DNA of 64,000 bases, taken from assembly GCA_002591745.1 (NCBI GenBank), contig PDLQ01000004.1, positions 124,001 through 188,000 of the forward strand, written 5' to 3'. Shown in pieces: positions 15,835-62,834 of the stretch. A program made the position numbers and the translations under genes. The stretch comes from Lewinellaceae bacterium SD302 (GTDB lineage Bacteria; Bacteroidota; Bacteroidia; Chitinophagales; Saprospiraceae). Numbering within the stretch: position 1 is the first letter of the stretch; each line of letters starts with the position of its first letter. The notes under the pieces are model-generated. The model saw nothing but the letters and a program-made list of their open reading frames with translations. It was not told where the DNA came from and searched no databases.

Positions 15835-16193
15835 CTCAATCATTAGCGTACTCGGCAAATATTGTATATACTACGGTGAGCTAAAATTAAAAATCGCCCC
15901 GGCAGCCCGAAGGCACCGGAGCGATCCACACACTATGAGAACACCCATTAAGTTCTTGATATCTTCACCGGAGCGTGTCCGTATCAGATTCGCCTATAAG
16001 ACGATATTAATGAGACGATAGATGCGTTTTAAAAAGTTAAAAACGATAACACTTTTTCGTAAAAATCTGAATTTCAATAGGTTGTGTATTTTAGGTAAAT
16101 GGTTTAAAGACGCGATTCCGACACTTTAACATTTGTTGTTTTCGTATTTCAGCCATTCGGACCGAATTGGGAACCTTCGTATCTTTACCGGGA
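15835..16193. other. Intergenic region upstream of dnaG
   Basis: About 360 bp without a gene. A GC-rich hairpin (ATCGCCCCGG at 15893-15902, CCGGAGCGAT at 15916-15925) lies near the left side; it has a T-tract only for leftward transcription but may still mark the end of the surface-protein mRNA. The right half is AT-rich and should hold the dnaG promoter; TATCTTTA at 16180-16187 just before the ATG is -7-like, but I see no good -33 partner. Confidence 0.5.
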
Positions 16194-18317
16194 ATGATCT
16201 TAGAAGAAAGCGTAAGGGAAGTAATCGATACTGCCCGCATTGAGGATGTAGTGGGTGACTTCGTCTCGTTGAAGCGGCGGGGGCAGAACCTGACCGGTCT
16301 ATGCCCTTTCCACAATGAAAATACGCCGAGCTTTAACGTCAACCCGGCCCGTAATATTTACAAGTGCTTCGGTTGTGGCGTGGGAGGGGATCCGGTGAAA
16401 TTCCTCATAGAACTGGAGCAAATTTCTTTCCCGGATGCCATCAAATGGCTCGCCCGTCGTTATAACATTAAGCTCAAGGAGAAGGAACTGACTGATGAGC
16501 AGCAGGTCGTCTTTAAGGAAAAGGAAAGTCTTTACCTGGTCAACGAATTCGCCCGTCAGTGGTATGAGCAACAGTTGTATGAGACGGACGAGGGCAAATC
16601 CGTTGGTCTCAGCTACTTCAAAGGCCGCGGTTTCCGGGAGGAGGTGATGCGTAAATTCGGTCTGGGTTATGCGCCAAATTCACGGGATGCCTTTACCAGG
16701 AAAGCCCTGGCTACCGGTTACAAAAAGGACCAACTGCAGAAACTGGGGTTGAGCCGCAATGGTCGTGATTTTTTCTACGACCGGGTGATGTTCACCATCC
16801 ACAACCTGACGGGGAAGCCCATCGCCTTCGCCGGCCGCATCCTCAAAAAGGACGCCAAGGCTCCTAAATACGTCAACAGTCCGGAGACGGAGATCTACCA
16901 CAAGAGCAATGTCCTTTACGGCATGTTCCAGGCCAAGCAGTCCATCCGAAAATTGGACAATGTTTATCTGGTAGAGGGCTATACCGACGTCATCAGCCTG
17001 GCCCAGCATGGAGTAGAGAACGTGGTGGCCAGCTCGGGAACCAGCCTGACCCCTGGTCAGGTGAGTCTGATCAAACGCTTTACCGATAACGTCACCTTAT
17101 TATACGACGGTGATAAGGCGGGGATTAAAGCCGCCTTGCGTGGGGTGGATATTTTGCTGGACCAGGATATGACCGTCCGTTGCGTTCGTCTGCCGGAAGG
17201 GGAGGACCCCGACAGTTATCTGCAAAGCGTCGGTACCACTGCTTTTGTGGACTACCTGACCAAGCAGCGGCAGGATTTTATGATCTTCAAAGCCAAGTTG
17301 CTCCTTGACGAAAGTGGCAATGACCTGGGAGGTAAAACGGCCGTTATTCAGAATCTGGCCGAAAGTTTGGCGAGGATCAATCAGCCGCTGAAACGGGCCG
17401 AATACATCAAACAACTGGCCGAACTGATTGGTGTACAGGAAAACTTGCTGGTGGGTCAGATCAATAAGGCCGTCGGTTCCCGCCAGAAACAGCTGCAGCA
17501 AGATGCCCAGCGCAATGAATGGAAAGCCCGACGTGAACGGCCACAGCCACCGCCTGCTCCGGGTCCGGACAGCGGAGGTGCCGACCCCGGCCCCCAGGCG
17601 CCACCCGCTACTCACGGAGATGAAGGCTGGCCCGGCGCGGAACCCGGCTGGTACGGTGATGAACAGGCAGGCATGGACCCCGGTGCGCCACCCCCCGATT
17701 TCTTTCCCGGCGCACCACCGCCACCAGTAGAAGAACCGCTCGAGGAAGAACTGGCCATCGGCCATACCTACCAGGAACGCTACCTGGCCATACTGTTAAT
17801 GCGGGACGGGGCCAAACTATACGACGAAGCGACCAACTCCACCATCGCCCAATTCTTACTCGTCAACGTGCAGGATGTACTGGATGATTTCGACAGTCCG
17901 TTCTACCGCCTCGTGGTGGAAGACGCCCGTAACTATTTCCAGGAAAAAGGAAAACCCGCCGACCTCGATTACTACCTGGCCCACGCTGATCAAAAAGTAC
18001 GTAAACTAGCGGTGGACAGCAGTATCAGCCGTTATACCATGAGCCCTAATTGGGTCAGTAAATACGGCAAATATCTGAGCCAGAAACTACCTGAAGAGAA
18101 CCAGCGCGCCGCCGCCGACAGTTTTATCCGCATCTTTCGCCAGGAAAAACTTCAGCGTAAAATAGACCAGAACATGCGTAAGATCAGGGAGCTACAGTCC
18201 GCTGGCCAACACGAGGAATTAATCCCTTACCTGAAACTACAAAGTGAATTGATCAAACTCAAGAACCAGACTTTGGGAGAGAACATGCAGAAGTTCACGC
18301 CACCGAAGTATTATTAG
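16194..18317 (+). CDS. dnaG: DNA primase
   Basis: DnaG makes RNA primers at the replication fork. The CHC2 zinc-binding domain is at the N-terminus (CPFHNENTPSFNVNP and KCFGCG, about residues 32-65). The catalytic core includes LGYAPNS and FAGRIL, and the Toprim domain has VEGYTDVISLAQ with its acidic residue and LLYDGDKAG (about 255-320). A proline- and glycine-rich linker (about 445-520) precedes the helicase-interacting C-terminus, as is common in Bacteroidota. The ATG at 16194 (MILEESVREVIDTARIEDVV) matches the family N-terminus; a TTG nine codons upstream is less likely. The TAG stop forms part of the first word of the adjacent repeat array. Confidence 0.97.
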   Translation: MILEESVREVIDTARIEDVVGDFVSLKRRGQNLTGLCPFHNENTPSFNVNPARNIYKCFGCGVGGDPVKFLIELEQISFPDAIKWLARRYNIKLKEKELTDEQQVVFKEKESLYLVNEFARQWYEQQLYETDEGKSVGLSYFKGRGFREEVMRKFGLGYAPNSRDAFTRKALATGYKKDQLQKLGLSRNGRDFFYDRVMFTIHNLTGKPIAFAGRILKKDAKAPKYVNSPETEIYHKSNVLYGMFQAKQSIRKLDNVYLVEGYTDVISLAQHGVENVVASSGTSLTPGQVSLIKRFTDNVTLLYDGDKAGIKAALRGVDILLDQDMTVRCVRLPEGEDPDSYLQSVGTTAFVDYLTKQRQDFMIFKAKLLLDESGNDLGGKTAVIQNLAESLARINQPLKRAEYIKQLAELIGVQENLLVGQINKAVGSRQKQLQQDAQRNEWKARRERPQPPPAPGPDSGGADPGPQAPPATHGDEGWPGAEPGWYGDEQAGMDPGAPPPDFFPGAPPPPVEEPLEEELAIGHTYQERYLAILLMRDGAKLYDEATNSTIAQFLLVNVQDVLDDFDSPFYRLVVEDARNYFQEKGKPADLDYYLAHADQKVRKLAVDSSISRYTMSPNWVSKYGKYLSQKLPEENQRAAADSFIRIFRQEKLQRKIDQNMRKIRELQSAGQHEELIPYLKLQSELIKLKNQTLGENMQKFTPPKYY

Positions 18318-18395
18318 TATGCTCGTGCCTCGCTTTAGTATACCTGCGGTGTTAGTATGCTCGTTTCTCGCGTTAGTAAGCCTTTGGCCTTAGCC
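18314..18395 (+). repeat. Left word array of the four-helix-bundle element
   Basis: Four words begin with TTAGTA: TTAGTATGCTCGTGCCTCGC (18314-18333), TTAGTATACCTGCGGTG (18335-18351), a second GCTCGTTTCTCGC word (18352-18372) and TTAGTAAGCCTTTGGCC (18373-18389). The inserts are small or imperfect palindromes. The array starts on the dnaG stop codon. The first word is an exact 20-bp inverted match to 18863-18882 beyond the four-helix-bundle gene, and the second matches 18899-18915 with one mismatch. Confidence 0.85.
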
Positions 18396-18486
18396 ATTTT
18401 AAACGTTTAAAAACGTATTTATACGTTTAATGCACGACTATTTTGTTGGAGGTGTTTGAGATTTGTGGCGAATCAAGAAGTGCAAT

Positions 18487-18861
18487 ATGCAATCTCTACA
18501 CAAAAAGTGGCTGGCCTATGAAAAGGGTTTCTCGTTGGCCATGGACATCTTCCGAATCTCGAACAGTTTTCCAAAATGTGAAATCTATTCCTTGACGGAT
18601 CAAATTCGCAGGTCTTCCAGATCAGTTAATGCAAATCTGGCTGAAGCAGTCGGGAAACGTCGCTATCCAAAGCACTTCGTTGCAAAACTAACGGATGCCG
18701 GCTCCGAAAACTTCGAAACCCAAACGTGGCTGGACTTTGCAGTAGAGTGCAAATACATTTCCCCGGAAGCCTACCAGCAATTAACCAATCGTTCCGAAGA
18801 AGTAGGCAAACTAATTGCTTACATGATTCGCAACCCTTCTCAGTTCATCAAAGCGTACTAA
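18487..18861 (+). CDS. Four-helix-bundle protein, 23S rRNA IVP (S23) family
   Basis: A 124-residue helical protein of the family first known from intervening sequences in bacterial 23S rRNA genes and related to the Avd accessory protein of diversity-generating retroelements. Diagnostic features are the aromatic N-terminal helix (KKWLAYEKGFSLAMDIFRIS), KCEIYSLTDQIRRSSRSVNANLAEA with the conserved Q-I-R-R-S/A and N-x-A-E-A/G motif, and ETQTWLDFAVECKYIS. ATG at 18487 gives the family N-terminus. The molecular role of stand-alone members is unknown; IVP-family proteins are basic and thought to bind nucleic acid. It looks AT-richer than its neighbours, and its last codons and stop (GCGTACTAA) are themselves a word of the right-hand repeat array, so gene and arrays form one unit. 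Confidence 0.85.
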   Translation: MQSLHKKWLAYEKGFSLAMDIFRISNSFPKCEIYSLTDQIRRSSRSVNANLAEAVGKRRYPKHFVAKLTDAGSENFETQTWLDFAVECKYISPEAYQQLTNRSEEVGKLIAYMIRNPSQFIKAY

Positions 18862-18951
18862 TGCGAGGCACGAGCATACTAACGCTAAGGGCGTACTAAC
18901 ACCGCAGGTGTACTAAGGAGCTTGCTCCGTCCTAACGCAAAGCGCACTAAA
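18853..18951 (-). repeat. Right word array of the four-helix-bundle element
   Basis: Words end in TACTAA or a close variant: GCGTACTAA (which contains the gene's stop codon), GCGAGGCACGAGCATACTAA (18863-18882), CGCTAAGGGCGTACTAA, CACCGCAGGTGTACTAA, GGAGCTTGCTCCGTCCTAA and CGCAAAGCGCACTAA. Several inserts are perfect mini-palindromes (CACC-GGTG, GGAGC-GCTCC). The array is an inverted counterpart of 18314-18395 and ends 2 nt from the ffh stop codon. Confidence 0.85.
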
Positions 18952-18953
18952 TT

Positions 18954-20288
18954 CTACCTCCTCCGTCCAGCAGGTATTCCTCCTCCCATCATCGCCGGAT
19001 TCTTGCTCATTTTGTGCATCATCTTACGCATTTGATCGAACTGCTTGATGAAACGATTGACGTCGTCCATACCCTGACCGCAACCACGGGCAATCCGCTT
19101 CTTACGACTCAGGTTGAGGAGTTCCGGATTGGAGCGCTCTTTAGGTGTCATACTGAAAATAATGGCTTCCACCTTGTTGAAGGCCGTGTCGTCGATGTCC
19201 AGGTCCTTGGTCATCTTGCTCATGCCGGGGATCATGTTCAGCAGGCTCTTGATGTCACCCATTTTGCGGAGTTGGGCGAGCTGGCCAAGGAAGTCGTTGA
19301 AGTCGAATTTGTTCTTACGAATCTTCTTTTCGAGGCGCTTGGCTTCCTCTTCGTCGAACTGGTCCTGGGCACGCTCCACGAAGGAGATGATGTCACCCAT
19401 ACCCAGGATTCGCTGGGCCATACGTTCGGGGTGAAAGACATCCAGGGTGTCCATCCCTTCACCGGTAGAGACGAATTTAATGGGCTTACCCACAGTGTAC
19501 TTCACCGAAAGGGCGGCACCACCGCGAGTGTCACCGTCCAGTTTGGTCAGTACGACGCCGTCGTAGTTGATCCGCTCGTTGAAGGCCTTGGCGGTGTTCA
19601 CGGCATCCTGACCGGTCATGGAGTCCACTACGAAGAGTGTCTCATTTGGTGAGATCGCTTCTCTTACTTCGGCGATCTCCTGCATCATCGCTTCGTCGAC
19701 ACTCAGGCGGCCGGCCGTATCGACAATCACCACGTCGTACTTGTTGTCCTGGGCGTGGGCAATGGCGTTGAGGGCAATCTCTACCGGTTTCTTGTTTTCC
19801 GGTTCCTTGTAAATGCCCGCCCCTACCTGTTCGGAAAGCACCGTCAGCTGGTCAATGGCCGCCGGACGGTAAACGTCACAGGCGGTCAACAGCACTTTCA
19901 TGTTCTTTTTAGTCTTCAGGTGCAGGGCCAGTTTTCCGCTAAAGGTGGTCTTACCTGACCCCTGCAATCCGGCGATCAAAATCACGGCCGGGTCGCCCTT
20001 GGCGTTGATGCCTTCGGCCTGGCCCCCCATCAATTCGGTGAGCTGATCCCTGACGATTTTTACCATCAATTGGCCCGGTTTCACTGACTTGAGTACGTTA
20101 TCCGTACCCAGCGCCTTTTCCTTGACCTTATCGGTAAACTCCTTGGCGATCTTATAGTTAACGTCAGCCGCCACCAGCGCGCGCCGGATCTCCTTGATGG
20201 ATTGGGCTACGTTGATCTCAGTGATCTTGTTATCTCCCGTCAGGGTCTTGAAAGCGCCTTCGAGGCGATCGCTCAGGTTATCGAACAT
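18954..20288 (-). CDS. ffh: Signal recognition particle protein (SRP54)
   Basis: Ffh binds signal peptides and 4.5S RNA and delivers nascent membrane proteins to FtsY. The N domain (1-~95, four helices) leads into the SRP GTPase: P-loop GLQGSGKTT (about 107-115), TACDVYRPAA, VDTAGRL and TKLDGDTRGGAALS. The methionine-rich M domain (about 295-444: GMGDIISFVERAQ, RKMGDIKSLLNMIPGM, SMTPKERSNPELL, RKKRIARGCGQ) is complete and ends in a short basic tail. The length of 444 residues is normal. It converges on dnaG across the four-helix-bundle element. Upstream, TTTG and TATATTCG with an 18-nt spacer look like its promoter. Confidence 0.97.
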   Translation of the reverse strand: MFDNLSDRLEGAFKTLTGDNKITEINVAQSIKEIRRALVAADVNYKIAKEFTDKVKEKALGTDNVLKSVKPGQLMVKIVRDQLTELMGGQAEGINAKGDPAVILIAGLQGSGKTTFSGKLALHLKTKKNMKVLLTACDVYRPAAIDQLTVLSEQVGAGIYKEPENKKPVEIALNAIAHAQDNKYDVVIVDTAGRLSVDEAMMQEIAEVREAISPNETLFVVDSMTGQDAVNTAKAFNERINYDGVVLTKLDGDTRGGAALSVKYTVGKPIKFVSTGEGMDTLDVFHPERMAQRILGMGDIISFVERAQDQFDEEEAKRLEKKIRKNKFDFNDFLGQLAQLRKMGDIKSLLNMIPGMSKMTKDLDIDDTAFNKVEAIIFSMTPKERSNPELLNLSRKKRIARGCGQGMDDVNRFIKQFDQMRKMMHKMSKNPAMMGGGIPAGRRR

Positions 20289-27999: not shown

Positions 28000-28576
28000 T
28001 CCGGGTGGTTGATTTTGAAAAAGCAAACCGAGATTAGGTCTCGGAACAGCGGGCGAAGATAACACCCTTTAAGTAAATGGCGGCCGGGGTACTAAAGTTT
28101 GGTGCGAATTAGAGATTTTCAGTATTTCTGAACCGGACTGCCAGAGCGAAGACGGCCCTTTCAGACTCAATGCAATAATCACAATGATCGTCCTTTGGCC
28201 CGAGCATTGCTACTTTGAAGACCTGAAAAATAACAGATCGCGACGTACAATCGAGCTTTTCCTATTGACCGTACAGATTAAAGCTACATGCTTGAGTAAA
28301 ATCAGATGAAATCTACTCATAATCATAAAATCTAAATCCGTTGGTCCTCCTAAATCTACTTTTCATCGAAAGGCGAACTTGTATACTGGGTAAGGTGCCT
28401 ATGTTTGATTAACAACTCCGAGGAGCGAATAAACGATCAGTCATTATTTTGGTTAACAAAGTAGCAATGCTGGTTTAGCGTGAGAATGATCCCGTCATGC
28501 GACGATCAGTAAAGCTAAAGCGGTGATGCCTATATTTACTGATTAGCATTATGCTACCGGACCACTCACTCCCACC
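28000..28576. other. Intergenic region with an inverted pair of dispersed repeats
   Basis: About 575 bp between divergent genes (queA leftward, permease rightward). Besides the two repeat copies at 28205-28223 and 28447-28469, no gene is recognised. It must hold both promoters, but no clear TTG/TAnnTTTG pair stands out. Confidence 0.5.
28205..28469. repeat. Widely spaced inverted pair of the dispersed CAAAGTAGC motif
   Basis: CATTGCTACTTTGAAGACC (28205-28223) faces TTTTGGTTAA then CAAAGTAGCAATG (28447-28469), 223 bp apart. Both match the 22-bp consensus. Confidence 0.8.
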
Positions 28577-33288: not shown

Positions 33289-33777
33289 ATGAAACCGCTA
33301 ATCGATTCTCCCTGGCGCCGGCTGGATGGCCGCCAGATCGAATTACCTATCAAAGACGCCGTGGCCGCGGCTATCGAACGTGAAATAGCCGATGGGCATA
33401 AATTGAAAGTTTGCATCGGTACCGATAGCCAAGTTCGGGGCAAGCTCGTGGAGTTTGCTACGGTAATTGTCTTTGTACGTGAAAAAAAAGGGGGCTTTAT
33501 GTTCATCTCCAATTATAAAACGGAGCAGAAAATGGGCATCCGCGAAAGAATGATCCTGGAAGTTGCCCGCTCCGTAGAAGTCGCTTACGCACTGTGCGAT
33601 CTGTTGGACCGCTATAAAGTAGAATTGGAGGTACACGCTGATATCAACACCGACCCCCACTTCCAGTCCAATGTTGCGCTCAAGGAAGCCATGGGATATA
33701 TTTTGGGAATGGGCTTTGTCTTCAAGGCTAAGCCAAATGCATTTGCCAGTTCGGCTTGCGCGGATAAGGTGGTGTAG
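33289..33777 (+). CDS. RNase H-like YkuK family protein (DUF458)
   Basis: A 162-residue protein of the YkuK/DUF458 family, which adopts an RNase H-like fold. Visible features: KVCIGTDSQVRGKLVEFATVIVFVREKKGG (first acidic residue in GTDS, about 44-46), IRERMILEVARSVEVAYALCDLL, and VELEVHADINTDPHFQSN with HAD-x-N (about 117-121), then a conserved GYILGMGFVFKAKPNAFASSACADK end. The family is assumed to act on nucleic acid but the activity is not firmly established. Its TAG stop directly abuts a palindromic word array. Confidence 0.88.
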   Translation: MKPLIDSPWRRLDGRQIELPIKDAVAAAIEREIADGHKLKVCIGTDSQVRGKLVEFATVIVFVREKKGGFMFISNYKTEQKMGIRERMILEVARSVEVAYALCDLLDRYKVELEVHADINTDPHFQSNVALKEAMGYILGMGFVFKAKPNAFASSACADKVV

Positions 33778-34005
33778 TGGACGCGCTGCGCGCTTTTAGA
33801 CGTCGCTGCGCAACTTTTGGACACTCGTTCCTCACTTTTGGGTATACTGGAGTCGAAGACAAGAGCTTTCTCTTTTTGATTTTAGTACATCCACAAGATC
33901 GCTTCAGCGATCGTCCTTTAGCTTTGTGTCCACAAGCCGAAGGCGTCTAAAAGGGCTTTAGCCCGTCCAATAGGAGCACAGCGACGTCTAAAAGCGCAGC
34001 GTCCA
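33774..34005. repeat. MITE-like element of palindromic words in inverted arms, no gene inside
   Basis: The left arm (from 33774: AGTGGACGCGCTGCGCGC, then TTTTAGACGTCGCTGCGC) and the right arm (33976-34005, GCACAGCGACGTCTAAAAG then CGCAGCGTCCACT) are near-perfect inverted copies. Between them lie further words joined by GTCC/GGAC and TTTTAGAC/GTCTAAAA spacers, with perfect palindromes GATCGCT-AGCGATC (33898-33913), GCCGAAGGC and GGGCTTTAGCCC. It begins at the YkuK gene's stop codon and ends ~13 bp before fabD. Confidence 0.8.
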
Positions 34006-34006
34006 C

Positions 34007-34014
34007 TATCTTCG
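34007..34014 (+). promoter_or_regulatory. Candidate fabD -7 box next to the start codon
   Basis: TATCTTCG lies 4 nt upstream of the fabD ATG, resembling the TAnnTTTG -7 element that in Bacteroidota can sit right before a start codon. The -33 region would fall inside the word array. Confidence 0.35.
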
Positions 34015-34018
34015 CGGC

Positions 34019-34900
34019 ATGAAAGCATACATCTTCCCCGGACAAGGCGCCCAGTTCACTGGAATGGGCAAGGAATTATTTGAAACCAACGCCAAAGCTC
34101 GTCAGCTATTCGAGCAGGCAGATGAGGTATTGGGTTACTCACTCAGCGAAGTCATGTTCAATGGCACGGATGAGGAGTTGAAGCAGACCAAATATACCCA
34201 GCCGGCCATTTTTGTACACTCGGTAATTACTTTTCTAAGCACCGAAGAGAATCAGGTGCCCGAAGCCGTTGCGGGCCACAGCCTGGGCGAGTTCAGCGCG
34301 CTGGTGGCTGCGGGAGCACTGGATTTTGCTGCTGCTCTGCGTCTGGTGCAGGAACGCGCGTTGGCGATGCAGGAGGCTTGTGACGCCGTGCCCGGTACTA
34401 TGGCCGCGGTATTGGGGATGGACGATGACGTAATTGAAAATGCCTGTGCCGAGATCGAAGAAGTGGTCGTGCCGGCCAACTACAACAGTGTTGGTCAATT
34501 GGTGATCAGTGGATCGAACGAAGGTGTAGAAAAAGCTTCGGCCGTGCTAACCGATCTGGGGGCGCGTCGGGTGGTGCCACTGCCCGTAGGTGGTGCTTTT
34601 CACAGTCCGCTGATGCAGCCCGCTCAGGATCGACTACGTAAGGCTATCGAGGATACTCACTTTCGCCCACCCGCCTGCCCGATCTACCAGAACGTGGACG
34701 CCAAGGCGAGTGTAGACCCCGACGATATTCGCGAAAAGTTAATCGCCCAGCTGACTGGTCCAGTACGTTGGACTCAGACGGTACAAAACATGATCGCTGA
34801 TGGTGCTGCTCCATTTGTTGAAGTAGGTGGTAAGGGTAAGATCCTGGCTGGGTTGGTGCGCAAGATAGACCGCCAGGCTACGGTGGAACAGCTTCAGTAA
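34019..34900 (+). CDS. fabD: Malonyl-CoA:ACP transacylase
   Basis: FabD loads malonate from CoA onto acyl carrier protein to start fatty-acid elongation. The 293-residue protein has FPGQGAQFTGMGKEL at the N-terminus, the nucleophile motif GHSLGE with serine 88, the arginine in QERALAMQEA, VVPANYNSVGQLVISG, LPVGGAFHSPLMQPA with the catalytic histidine near 196, and a final VEVGGKGKILAGLVRKI. Length and motifs are standard. It stands alone, not beside other fab genes, directly after the palindromic element. Confidence 0.96.
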   Translation: MKAYIFPGQGAQFTGMGKELFETNAKARQLFEQADEVLGYSLSEVMFNGTDEELKQTKYTQPAIFVHSVITFLSTEENQVPEAVAGHSLGEFSALVAAGALDFAAALRLVQERALAMQEACDAVPGTMAAVLGMDDDVIENACAEIEEVVVPANYNSVGQLVISGSNEGVEKASAVLTDLGARRVVPLPVGGAFHSPLMQPAQDRLRKAIEDTHFRPPACPIYQNVDAKASVDPDDIREKLIAQLTGPVRWTQTVQNMIADGAAPFVEVGGKGKILAGLVRKIDRQATVEQLQ

Positions 34901-39728: not shown

Positions 39729-40325
39729 CTAATCGTTACTGGCCTTGCGGCGGTTGATCTCATCCCGAATATTGGCTGCTTTTTCGTAATCTTCTTCACC
39801 GAGCACGTCCTCGAGCATCTGCTGGAGTTCGCCAATGGTGTAACTGGTGAGACCGGCTTCCTTTTCGGGGTCAGTTGCTTCTTTTTCGTACTCCTCGAAT
39901 TCTTCTTCGTCTTCCCCTTCCAGCACTACACTGGCACTTTCCATGATGAACTCGTAAGTGTAGATGGGGCAATCGTAGCGAATCGCTAAAGCAAGGGCGT
40001 CGCTGGTGCGGCTGTCTACTTCAATGATCTCACCCATACGATCCAATACCAGACGGGCGTAAAATATGCCCTCCTGCAAATTGTTGATGATGACTTCGCG
40101 CAACTGTACGTCCAGTGTTTCCAGTGTATTGCGGAACAGATCGTGGGTCATTGGCCGGGAGTTGACCATTCCTTCGATAGCTACGGCGATGGCCTGGGCT
40201 TCGAAAGAACCGATAATGACCGGAAGGCGACGCGAACCACTGGTCTCCCCCAATACAACGGCGTAATTGTTCGTCTGGGTGACGGAGCGGCTGATGGCCA
40301 TTATCTTCAACTCGATCTTGTTCAT
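39729..40325 (-). CDS. Bifunctional nuclease family protein (DUF151) with UvrB/C motif
   Basis: A 198-residue protein. Residues 1-~135 are a DUF151/bifunctional nuclease domain (KIMAISRSVTQTNNYAVVLGETSGSRRLPVIIGSFEAQAIAVAIEG, YARLVLDRMGEIIEVDSRTSDALALAIRYDCPIYT). An acidic linker (EGEDEEEFEEYEKE) leads to a C-terminal UVR motif (LQQMLEDVLGEEDYEKAANIRDEINRR), which binds proteins such as UvrA/UvrB or McsA partners. Family members are reported as nucleases in plants and bacteria, but the role in Bacteroidota is not settled. ATG at 40325 (MNKIELKIMAIS) is the family start; the open frame upstream has no conserved sequence. Confidence 0.88.
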   Translation of the reverse strand: MNKIELKIMAISRSVTQTNNYAVVLGETSGSRRLPVIIGSFEAQAIAVAIEGMVNSRPMTHDLFRNTLETLDVQLREVIINNLQEGIFYARLVLDRMGEIIEVDSRTSDALALAIRYDCPIYTYEFIMESASVVLEGEDEEEFEEYEKEATDPEKEAGLTSYTIGELQQMLEDVLGEEDYEKAANIRDEINRRKASND

Positions 40326-40969
40326 CTTCTCGGTAGGATATTTTCTGGTGACAACGGATTCAAAGCCATAGAGTGGCTGATTTCCGCGAAAAGGCTGCAA
40401 AGATAGGGGATTTTTGGTTTTGTTGGTGTGTGGGGCTTTTAGAGGCTTTATCTCGTGGTGTGCTTTCCCGTATCGCTGCGCTTGCATTCGCCTACGGCGT
40501 GCCTCTGGCGGCTTCATTTTTTCCCATCGATGGAAAAAACGAAGCAAAAAAAATCTAGGACTGTTATCTGGGCTTAACGCTCAATCTTTGCTGAAAAGCT
40601 AAAATGAAAAAACTCGCACAGAGATTTCATCTTCGTTATTTTAGTTTTAGAGTTATTAGACTGTCATTCTTCGGATAAAGCTCTACGGCTGCTCAGACAG
40701 TTTTCATTTTTTAACGCTTTTCAGTAAAGATTGAACTACCCAGCTAAATGTCCGGTCCTTCGTAAGCTTTATCGTCCGTCAGTTGCTCTTAGCCATCCTT
40801 TAGTAGTGTGGCTGAGCATGTCGCTTTGAGCTGCAATCACGCTTGATAATTACATTAGACCGAAGCGGGGACTGAACTCAGTATTGTCTGAGTGAAGCGA
40901 GTTTACTGAGTTCTAGATTTTTTTGCTACTTTTTTCATCAATGGAAAAAAGTAGGGTAAGAGCAGCACG
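40326..40969. repeat. Intergenic region with nested inverted repeats
   Basis: About 640 bp between two leftward genes. An outer inverted repeat spans 40517-40558 (TTTTTTCCCATCGATGG, AAAAAACGAAGC, then A-run and TCTAG) and 40913-40951 (CTAGA, T-run, GCTACTTTTTTCATCAATGG, AAAAAAG). An inner pair is TCAATCTTTGCTGAAAAGC (40581-40599) and GCTTTTCAGTAAAGATTGA (40716-40734), one mismatch. A third hairpin, GAACTCAGTA (40873-40882) with TACTGAGTTC (40904-40913), abuts the right arm. No coding signal is convincing; the whole looks like a non-autonomous mobile element or a structured RNA. Confidence 0.65.
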
Positions 40970-62685: not shown

Positions 62686-62705
62686 CATTGCTACTTTGAA
62701 GACAT
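62686..62705 (-). repeat. Dispersed CAAAGTAGC motif next to an octamer array
   Basis: CATTGCTACTTTGAAGACAT, ~80-bp left of the middle of the octamer array. Full match to the core. Confidence 0.75.
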
Positions 62706-62708
62706 AAT

Positions 62709-62834
62709 GGTCTTACGGTCTTACGGTCTCATAGTCTTGCGGTCTTACAGTCTTACGGTCTTGCGGGCGAGCATGATGCGGTGGCCGTTAGACCGTTAGA
62801 CTGTCAGACCGTTAGACCGTAAGACTGTCAGACC
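62709..62834. repeat. Inverted array of 8-bp words
   Basis: Seven to eight rightward octamers of the type GGTCTTAC (62709-62772: GGTCTTAC x4 exact or near, AGTCTTAC, GGTCTTGC, GGTCTCAT, AGTCTTGC) are separated by a 14-nt spacer (62773-62786) from six leftward octamers GTTAGACC/GTCAGACC/GTAAGACT (62787-62834). The two halves can fold on each other as one long imperfect hairpin. The array starts 1 nt from the stop codon of the TPR gene. Confidence 0.85.

Follow-up and report, generated by a model that had tools for sequence, protein, structure and literature searches.

Inverted arrays of short words around a four-helix-bundle gene between dnaG and ffh: a probable minimal mobile element

Background

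Why does a gene of the 23S rRNA intervening sequence protein (IVP) family stand outside 23S rRNA, between dnaG and ffh, and what are the inverted arrays of short words on either side of it? The locus that raises this question lies at 18314-18951 of a 64,000-nucleotide stretch of Lewinellaceae bacterium SD302 (contig PDLQ01000004.1, positions 124,001 to 188,000), the whole of which we call the window. An earlier note on this DNA had proposed that gene and arrays form a non-canonical mobile element. We put at about two in three the probability that the unit represents a widespread kind of minimal mobile element, composed of inverted word-array ends and a single fhb gene (our shorthand for a PF05635 four-helix-bundle gene). 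As judged from sequence comparison this reading is well supported in relatives, in which such genes are mostly enclosed by inverted arrays, filled sites have fhb-free counterparts and one element is found at two sites; the insertion of the window copy itself we infer by homology with these relatives.

Structure of the unit

TTAGTA words to the left of the fhb gene and TACTAA words to its right together occupy the space between two stop codons, those of neighbours which we take from their sequences to be dnaG (16167..18317) and ffh (18954..20288):

18314..18395, plus strand: left array, with TTAGTA at 18314, 18335, 18352 and 18373 plus inserts, then TTAGCC
18401..18430, plus strand: palindrome AAACGTTTAAAAACGTATTTATACGTTTAA, between the left array and the fhb open reading frame (ORF)
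18487..18861, plus strand: fhb gene, 124 aa, PF05635/TIGR02436 (23S rRNA IVP family), ATG at 18487
18853..18951, plus strand: right array of TACTAA words, inverted relative to the left array and ending 2 nt short of the ffh stop
16167..18317, plus strand: dnaG, upstream neighbour, co-directional with the fhb gene
18954..20288, minus strand: ffh, downstream neighbour, convergent, stop at 18954-18956

The earlier note had described an S23/IVP-family gene between inverted TTAGTA and TACTAA arrays, and sequence, ORF, repeat and family checks agree with it. Its finer observations are borne out as well: the left array begins on the dnaG stop codon (TAG at 18315-18317, within the first TTAGTA at 18314-18319), the gene's own end is a right-array word (the stop codon, at ORF end 18861, sits within the first TACTAA at 18856-18861), and the unit, from 18314 to 18951, fills the space between the converging stops. 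The pattern TACTAA-N(5-20)-TACTAA occurs six times in the window, always at the fhb locus, against an expectation of 0.05, and none of 100 shuffles reaches six. Across the gene, 18314-18340 is complementary to 18856-18882 (96% over 27 nt), 18335-18360 to 18891-18916 (92% over 26 nt) and 18335-18384 to 18850-18899 (76% over 50 nt). Taken singly, the arrays fold no better than shuffles (z +0.79 and -0.83), for which reason individual hairpins were rejected as the functional unit; as RNA, the whole unit is predicted to form one long stem (z -8.1, with 0 of 20 shuffles as good). The unusual feature of the unit is the mutual pairing of its two arrays. The palindromic inserts stressed by the earlier note are visible by eye in several cases, but not as a defining feature, given the folding of the arrays alone. 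The TTAGTA spacers start 21 and 17 nt apart. Spacers joined to hairpin-like inserts form a local variant, and words of some 7 nt are commoner across fhb loci. An Rfam search of the locus gave no match.

The window fhb protein scores 103.7 bits against PF05635 23S_rRNA_IVP (cut-off 33.8) and 99 bits against TIGR02436 (cut-off 24), and stays below the cut-offs of the Avd profiles (bAvd 32.2 of 40 bits, DivGenRetAVD 25.6 of 80). The family search returned PF05635 and a weak bAvd match, with no nuclease, transposase, recombinase or reverse transcriptase (RT) family. Among solved structures, the relatives 2rld and 2gsc each contain five chains.

Enclosing arrays across fhb loci

Each fhb locus received an enclosure score, for which the 400 nt preceding the domain were aligned locally with the reverse-complemented 400 nt that follow the stop. 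The cut-off of 12.0 is the 95th percentile of swapped left and right flanks from different loci. PF05635 genes occur in at least 39 of 40 genomes of relatives from the window's order; 96 loci of this order (own genome included) were taken from among the matches listed, and three were dropped for short flanks. Inverted arrays scoring above 12 were found at 67 of the 93 scorable loci, with an observed median of 18.5, so that most of the other orphan copies, for which the earlier note had suggested this check, are indeed enclosed. Controls came from three genomes (1.264 Mb in all), where the cut-off is exceeded by 11 of 312 small genes (p 6e-43, such p values being overstated as related loci at one site are non-independent) and by 14 of 219 genes with gaps on both sides.

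The window's genome has seven PF05635 genes. Read by eye, their flanks show repeats of a locus-specific word to the left of the gene and of its inverse to the right: AGATTGG/CCAATCT (between presumed mraY- and murD-like genes), GTCGGGA/TCCCGAC, TTTTGGACG/CGTCCAAAA, GGTCTTACG/CGTAAGACC and AATGATC/GATCATT. Five of the seven score above 12, and L003 and L006 exactly 12.0.

Three further sets extend this picture. 1) In mixed phyla (the best 80 among the matches listed, from named genome records, four of them dropped for short flanks), 55 of the 76 scored loci are enclosed. 2) In a set based on the phylum of a Mesorhizobium genome, presumably Pseudomonadota, where 52 of 299 genomes have PF05635, 34 of 41 loci exceed 12 and 23 of these reach at least 18. 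Its parts give 23/28 (the phylum itself) and 11/13 (five genomes reached through loci); two of 43 loci were dropped (L326, no hit; L343, short flank), and L316, L317, L318 and L320 repeat the mixed-set loci L258, L253, L264 and L277, and one locus of G043 must likewise be the same as L285. Of the control genes, taken from 888 kb of nine genomes, 20 of 270 exceed 12 (none at 18 or more), as do 15 of 153 gap-matched ones (one at 18 or more). 3) One fhb query matched 15 plasmid records, all cyanobacterial; leaving out H11 (organism and score as H10) and L299 (a partial gene), 10 of 13 scored loci exceed 12. L296, among them, scores only 10 despite its demonstrated unit, described below, since its right array extends into the end of the gene. 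The words of these plasmids are heptamers (E.g. TAGGGAG/CTCCCTA and AACAGGG/CCCTGTT), and cyanobacterial short tandemly repeated repetitive (STRR) sequences are likewise known as heptameric repeats.

From locus to locus the words vary, and a 7-nt period is frequent. Periodicities of 7, 14 and 21 are present in the right flanks of fhb genes from the window's order and from other phyla, with a mean self-match at lag 7 of 0.358 (window's order) and 0.359 (mixed phyla) versus 0.25 at random positions. Left arms are richer in G than in C (2428 vs 1034 aligned bases). Relative to the stop codon of an upstream co-directional gene the array starts at medians of 4, 0, -4 and 6 nt in the four sets, and between -10 and +15 nt of that stop in 25/48, 33/45, 14/27 and 4/7 cases. 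Orientation could be counted at 185 of 230 loci, the other 45 lacking a called neighbour on one side: the upstream neighbour is co-directional with fhb at 165 of the 185, and between co-directional neighbours units lie in sense 104 times versus 11 times in antisense.

Filled and fhb-free sites in cyanobacterial plasmids

Six filled cyanobacterial sites were compared with fhb-free relatives, and clean counterparts were obtained at five: L289 (vs L301 and L302), L295 (vs L303 and L304), L298 (vs L305, L311 and L312), L294 (vs L306-L308) and L296 (vs L306 and L308). At these the fhb-free linker is at most 42 nt, or stop and start codons touch or overlap, as against a unit of 413-518 nt. Homology breaks in or beside the upstream stop codon at L289, L294 and L296, and before it at L295 (by 8 nt) and L298 (by 37-39 nt, vs L305 and L312), where the array supplies a new stop. 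Judging from these alignments, the unit inserts whole, array to array, in the upstream gene's stop codon or at most 39 nt before it. In Nostoc sp. ATCC 53789 the same set of genes is found on two plasmids with different fhb units, each at its own junction (L294, L296), and a third plasmid (L306) lacks both units. Further, the L296 and L298 units stand at unrelated sites with 338 of 418 aligned positions identical and homology confined to those 418 nt. The same unit at different sites, together with empty sites in relatives, was thus found for cyanobacterial relatives and not for the window copy.

The ratio of nonsynonymous to synonymous change (dN/dS) between the L296 and L298 fhb genes is 0.14. 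Seven other pairs were compared; six are saturated, and the remaining one, with dS close to saturation, has a value of 0.04. Such values indicate that the fhb protein is under purifying selection in relatives.

On a Nostoc N6 plasmid (L310) the unit of the L296 type is probably a decayed copy: its annotated fhb gene is shortened to 240 nt, and the insert that holds it is longer, at 601 nt. On cyanobacterial plasmids fhb units also lie within CRISPR operons (L286, L293, L297), twice between cas6 and cas4 and once between cas10 and a cmr3-family gene, a placement which may make fhb appear CRISPR-linked in association screens.

Inheritance of words and gene-free arrays

The earlier note had suggested that gene and arrays evolved together, and the comparison of words sustains this: they are locus-specific yet match across the gene, and related proteins at different sites share them more often. 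Scored on right flanks only, since the upstream palindrome inflates similarity, words at non-homologous sites are alike in 25.9% of pairs at 60-80% protein identity, 2.5% at 50-60% and under 1% below 50%. Yet among 49 fhb pairs at homologous sites 24% have different words. Hence, words travel along with the gene yet turn over fast, both arms together. At L053, L057 and L062 (by eye also at L008 and L010-L012) one insertion site is shared across genomes and the arm words differ, so that words seem to have been replaced in place.

Arrays also occur apart from any fhb gene. In the 1.264 Mb from three genomes of the window's genus we detected 36 gene-free candidates; compared with a library of flanks (8-mer cluster diagonals being noisy at word-rich loci), 22 match one at 18 or more. 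The best match is a flank of the same genome for 19 of the 22, with 1.24 expected, or 18 of 21 after removal of one match (window 28065-28576 to L007) that was aligned through another dispersed repeat; all 18 are fhb flanks. Two such arrays lie in the window:

33775..34008, no strand assigned: gene-free inverted array with words of own-genome fhb copy L004, TTTTGGACG plus inserts
62709..62834, no strand assigned: gene-free inverted array with words of own-genome fhb copy L006, GGTCTTACG / CGTAAGACC

The first begins at the stop codon of the ORF 33289-33777 and ends shortly before an ORF that starts at 34019 and that we take to be fabD-like. Thus, arrays at unrelated loci, a point raised by the earlier note, do exist in the window's genome, but they are mostly built of own-genome fhb words, and fhb genes are enclosed far above controls. 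In G013 (L130, 9700-10760), gene-free AGTCTACAGTCTGT arrays occupy successive gaps around two ExbD genes.

GxxExxY genes in similar arrays

Genes of the GxxExxY family (PDDEXK_3, TIGR04256; confirmed for two loci) occur in 33 of the 40 relatives. Of 30 orphan loci (L157-L186) four were dropped, L160, L180 and L184 as not located by the motif rule and L179 for a short flank, and 20 of the 26 scored exceed 12. Their words are CACGGATT/AATCCGTG or CACAGAG/CTCTGTG, and their flanks show a slight excess near lag 9 only, without the 7-nt period of fhb flanks. As these genes are array-enclosed too, the claim widens to a kind of element housing at least two small gene families.

A model of the element and its known relatives

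We propose the following model. 1) The fhb protein, perhaps five-chained like its solved relatives, would bind the G-rich word arrays as its cognate ends. 2) Its expression would come from transcripts reading through the end of the upstream gene and from the palindrome, acting as its own promoter. 3) The fhb-array complex would mark the ends and bring in enzymes to carry out the strand chemistry, either those of the host or a nuclease acting in trans; outside help is proposed because no nuclease, transposase or RT family was matched by the protein. 4) The words would turn over quickly by slippage, the two ends staying alike. 5) Gene-free arrays would be non-autonomous derivatives, as REPINs are to RAYTs; this part of the model extends to the window's genus alone, because the Pseudomonadota samples gave no gene-free arrays.

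The palindrome AAACGTTTAAAAACGTATTTATACGTTTAA (18401-18430, fold z -2.5) is, from its position, the probable promoter/operator of the fhb gene. A strict motif of this type occurs within 160 nt 5' of the domain at 15 of the 96 fhb loci, all from the window's genus; in 464 kb of the own genome it stands solely at the fhb loci L004 and L005, and it is absent from 800 kb of two other genomes.

The nearest known kind is the 23S rRNA intervening sequence (IVS). The Coxiella IVS measures 428-444 nt, with a 28-bp terminal stem, an S23 ORF in the loop and excision by RNase III (PMC4990558). Shared with the fhb units are the PF05635 protein, terminal inverted repeats round an ORF, a length of ~420-440 nt and a long predicted stem, and the IVS is there called selfish (PMC4990558); the fhb units differ in their place at the ends of protein genes, as between dnaG and ffh, in their locus-specific word arrays, in dispersed gene-free copies and in having both filled and fhb-free sites. 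The unit is hence at least a new intergenic, array-ended variant, and a new class should the fhb protein turn out to be the determinant.

The REPIN/RAYT system likewise has gene-flanking repeats dispersed gene-free in the same genome, and one genome holds several families of words, every family next to a gene of its own (PMC3116915). It differs in using a Y1 HUH transposase in place of a four-helix bundle and REP palindromes in place of short-word arrays. Heptameric intergenic repeats are on record as GGGAATC in Xanthomonas, with 70 and 75 inverted pairs in two genomes, and GGGGA(C/T)T in Nostoc (PMC4692102), and TAACTGA repeats in Beggiatoaceae, cyanobacteria and Bacteroidetes (PMC4679880). 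Here Nostoc-type heptamers form the ends of fhb units, whereas the passages available from the published accounts tie such repeats to no gene family, fhb included (PMC4692102, PMC4679880). Avd of the diversity-generating retroelements is a distant homologue of the fhb protein, which falls below its cut-offs in a genome with no RVT_1 match. From insertion sequences and DNA transposons the unit differs in encoding no recognised transposase or recombinase. A figure legend on CRISPR-associated proteins names the 23S rRNA IVP domain (PMC10910872). A search of the open-access literature (titles and abstract starts) returned no link of fhb, S23 or GxxExxY genes to repeat arrays, a limited negative as most subscription literature lies outside it.

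More tentatively, and at a little under even odds, mobile elements that lack any known transposase or RT may form a pan-bacterial class, consisting of an fhb (or GxxExxY) gene and inverted arrays of short, often 7-nt words, of which the heptamer repeats of bacterial genomes could be the ends and gene-free derivatives and the 23S rRNA IVSs a branch settled in rRNA. If so, orphan genes annotated 'four helix bundle' or 'GxxExxY' and the heptameric intergenic repeats of cyanobacteria, Xanthomonas and Beggiatoaceae would gain a gene and a history of mobility, the 23S rRNA IVS would become one branch of a large element family, and jumping array-gene-array units may explain some puzzling short repeats in bacterial genomes. 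The question raised is how a unit with no recognised transposase or RT moves, why to gene ends and why in sense.

Weighing the alternatives

A set of observations weighs against the mobile-element reading. Scores do not exceed 12 at 26/93, 21/76, 7/41 and 3/13 loci (window's order, mixed, Pseudomonadota-based and cyanobacterial sets), and direct orientation also exceeds 12 at 15 of the 93 window-order loci; phylum-matched controls cover two of the four sets, the window-order and the Pseudomonadota-based one. Of the 21 matched gene-free arrays 11 are inverted at 17 or more, the rest, including all four of G007, being one-sided or weaker. Gene-free period-7/8 arrays were absent from the Pseudomonadota samples, both 400 kb from four fhb-bearing genomes and 488 kb from five fhb-free ones; the predicted lack of word arrays in fhb-free genomes therefore had no power of discrimination. 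At the sixth cyanobacterial comparison (L293/L300, cas6-cas4, vs Dolichospermum) the matched parts are 98.6% identical, but a different sequence of 273 nt stands there in the fhb-free copy, for which it was discounted as a clean empty site. A check for target-site duplication found overlaps of 5 nt and 3 nt at two junctions and none at the others, absence at a single site could reflect precise loss instead of insertion, and no active transposition was seen. The fhb protein may be a passenger, because it has no catalytic domain. Lastly, no clean empty dnaG-ffh site was found for the window copy: dnaG was matched in 18 other genomes of the 20 in the genus, and the first 420 nt 3' of it, inspected by eye, hold neither an fhb gene nor a two-sided array, the junction being unreadable because gene order is too different. 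In this interval, ahead of the gene that follows dnaG, L197 (G014) and, less clearly, L202 (G002) have one-sided runs of words resembling CCAAAAGA/CCAACGAA, without fhb; these runs share the gene end of the window unit but have other words.

Instead of being moved with the help of its own protein, the unit might be non-autonomous and moved in trans by another enzyme, such as a Y1 transposase or the PD-(D/E)XK-like GxxExxY protein, with fhb protecting or regulating the ends. The window's genome does have one Y1_Tnp match (28.9 bits, cut-off 23), and GxxExxY genes are common in relatives and array-enclosed as well. We nonetheless regard this as unlikely: GxxExxY has no match in G006, G014 and G016, all of the same genus, and a single partial one (37.7 bits) in G008, also of that genus, yet all four have fhb, and GxxExxY flanks do not share the fhb period.

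It is somewhat less likely that the unit is an mRNA intervening sequence. On this view the transcribed arrays would pair into a long stem that loops out the fhb ORF, RNase III would excise the whole, and the unit would spread via RNA. The single long stem of the whole unit, the strong sense bias and the Coxiella IVS, with the same protein family and nearly the same size (PMC4990558), would fit this. Against it, G-U-type mismatches show no consistent excess in the arms: 260 vs 192 in the window's order, 89 vs 91 in mixed phyla, 11 vs 24 in cyanobacteria and 86 vs 104 at GxxExxY loci. An RNA stem shown by wobble asymmetry was accordingly rejected, and word identity seems to be kept at the DNA level. 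Moreover, RVT_1 has no match in the window's genome, and an rRNA family matched at 0 of 20 fhb loci tested.

We find it improbable that the arrays are ordinary intergenic repeats of the host, with fhb a passenger between two of them, carried by recombination. Gene-free arrays are present in the same genomes, and word arrays enclose GxxExxY genes and, in one operon, ExbD genes lying between neighbouring gene-free arrays. However, ordinary small genes are seldom enclosed (11/312, 20/270), fhb genes are enclosed in Pseudomonadota where the samples gave no gene-free arrays, gene-free words match the fhb copies of their own genome, and fhb is under purifying selection. Finally, an artefact of chance or composition, conceivable in that the arrays are simple repeats that could score by composition and at least one counted match (L352) resembles coding sequence, is already refuted by the swapped-flank and gene controls.

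A separate dispersed repeat

Between genes of the window's genome we also observed a repeat with inverted ends TTCAAAGTAGCAATG / CATTGCTACTTTGAAG, ~150-700 nt apart, at the following positions:

Window: 2175-2431, 28065-28576, and one arm near 62690
Own-genome C1 (L097-L114): 40050-40750, 107850-108050, 168750-168950 and 334422-334840

This repeat looks like a family of miniature inverted-repeat transposable elements (MITEs).

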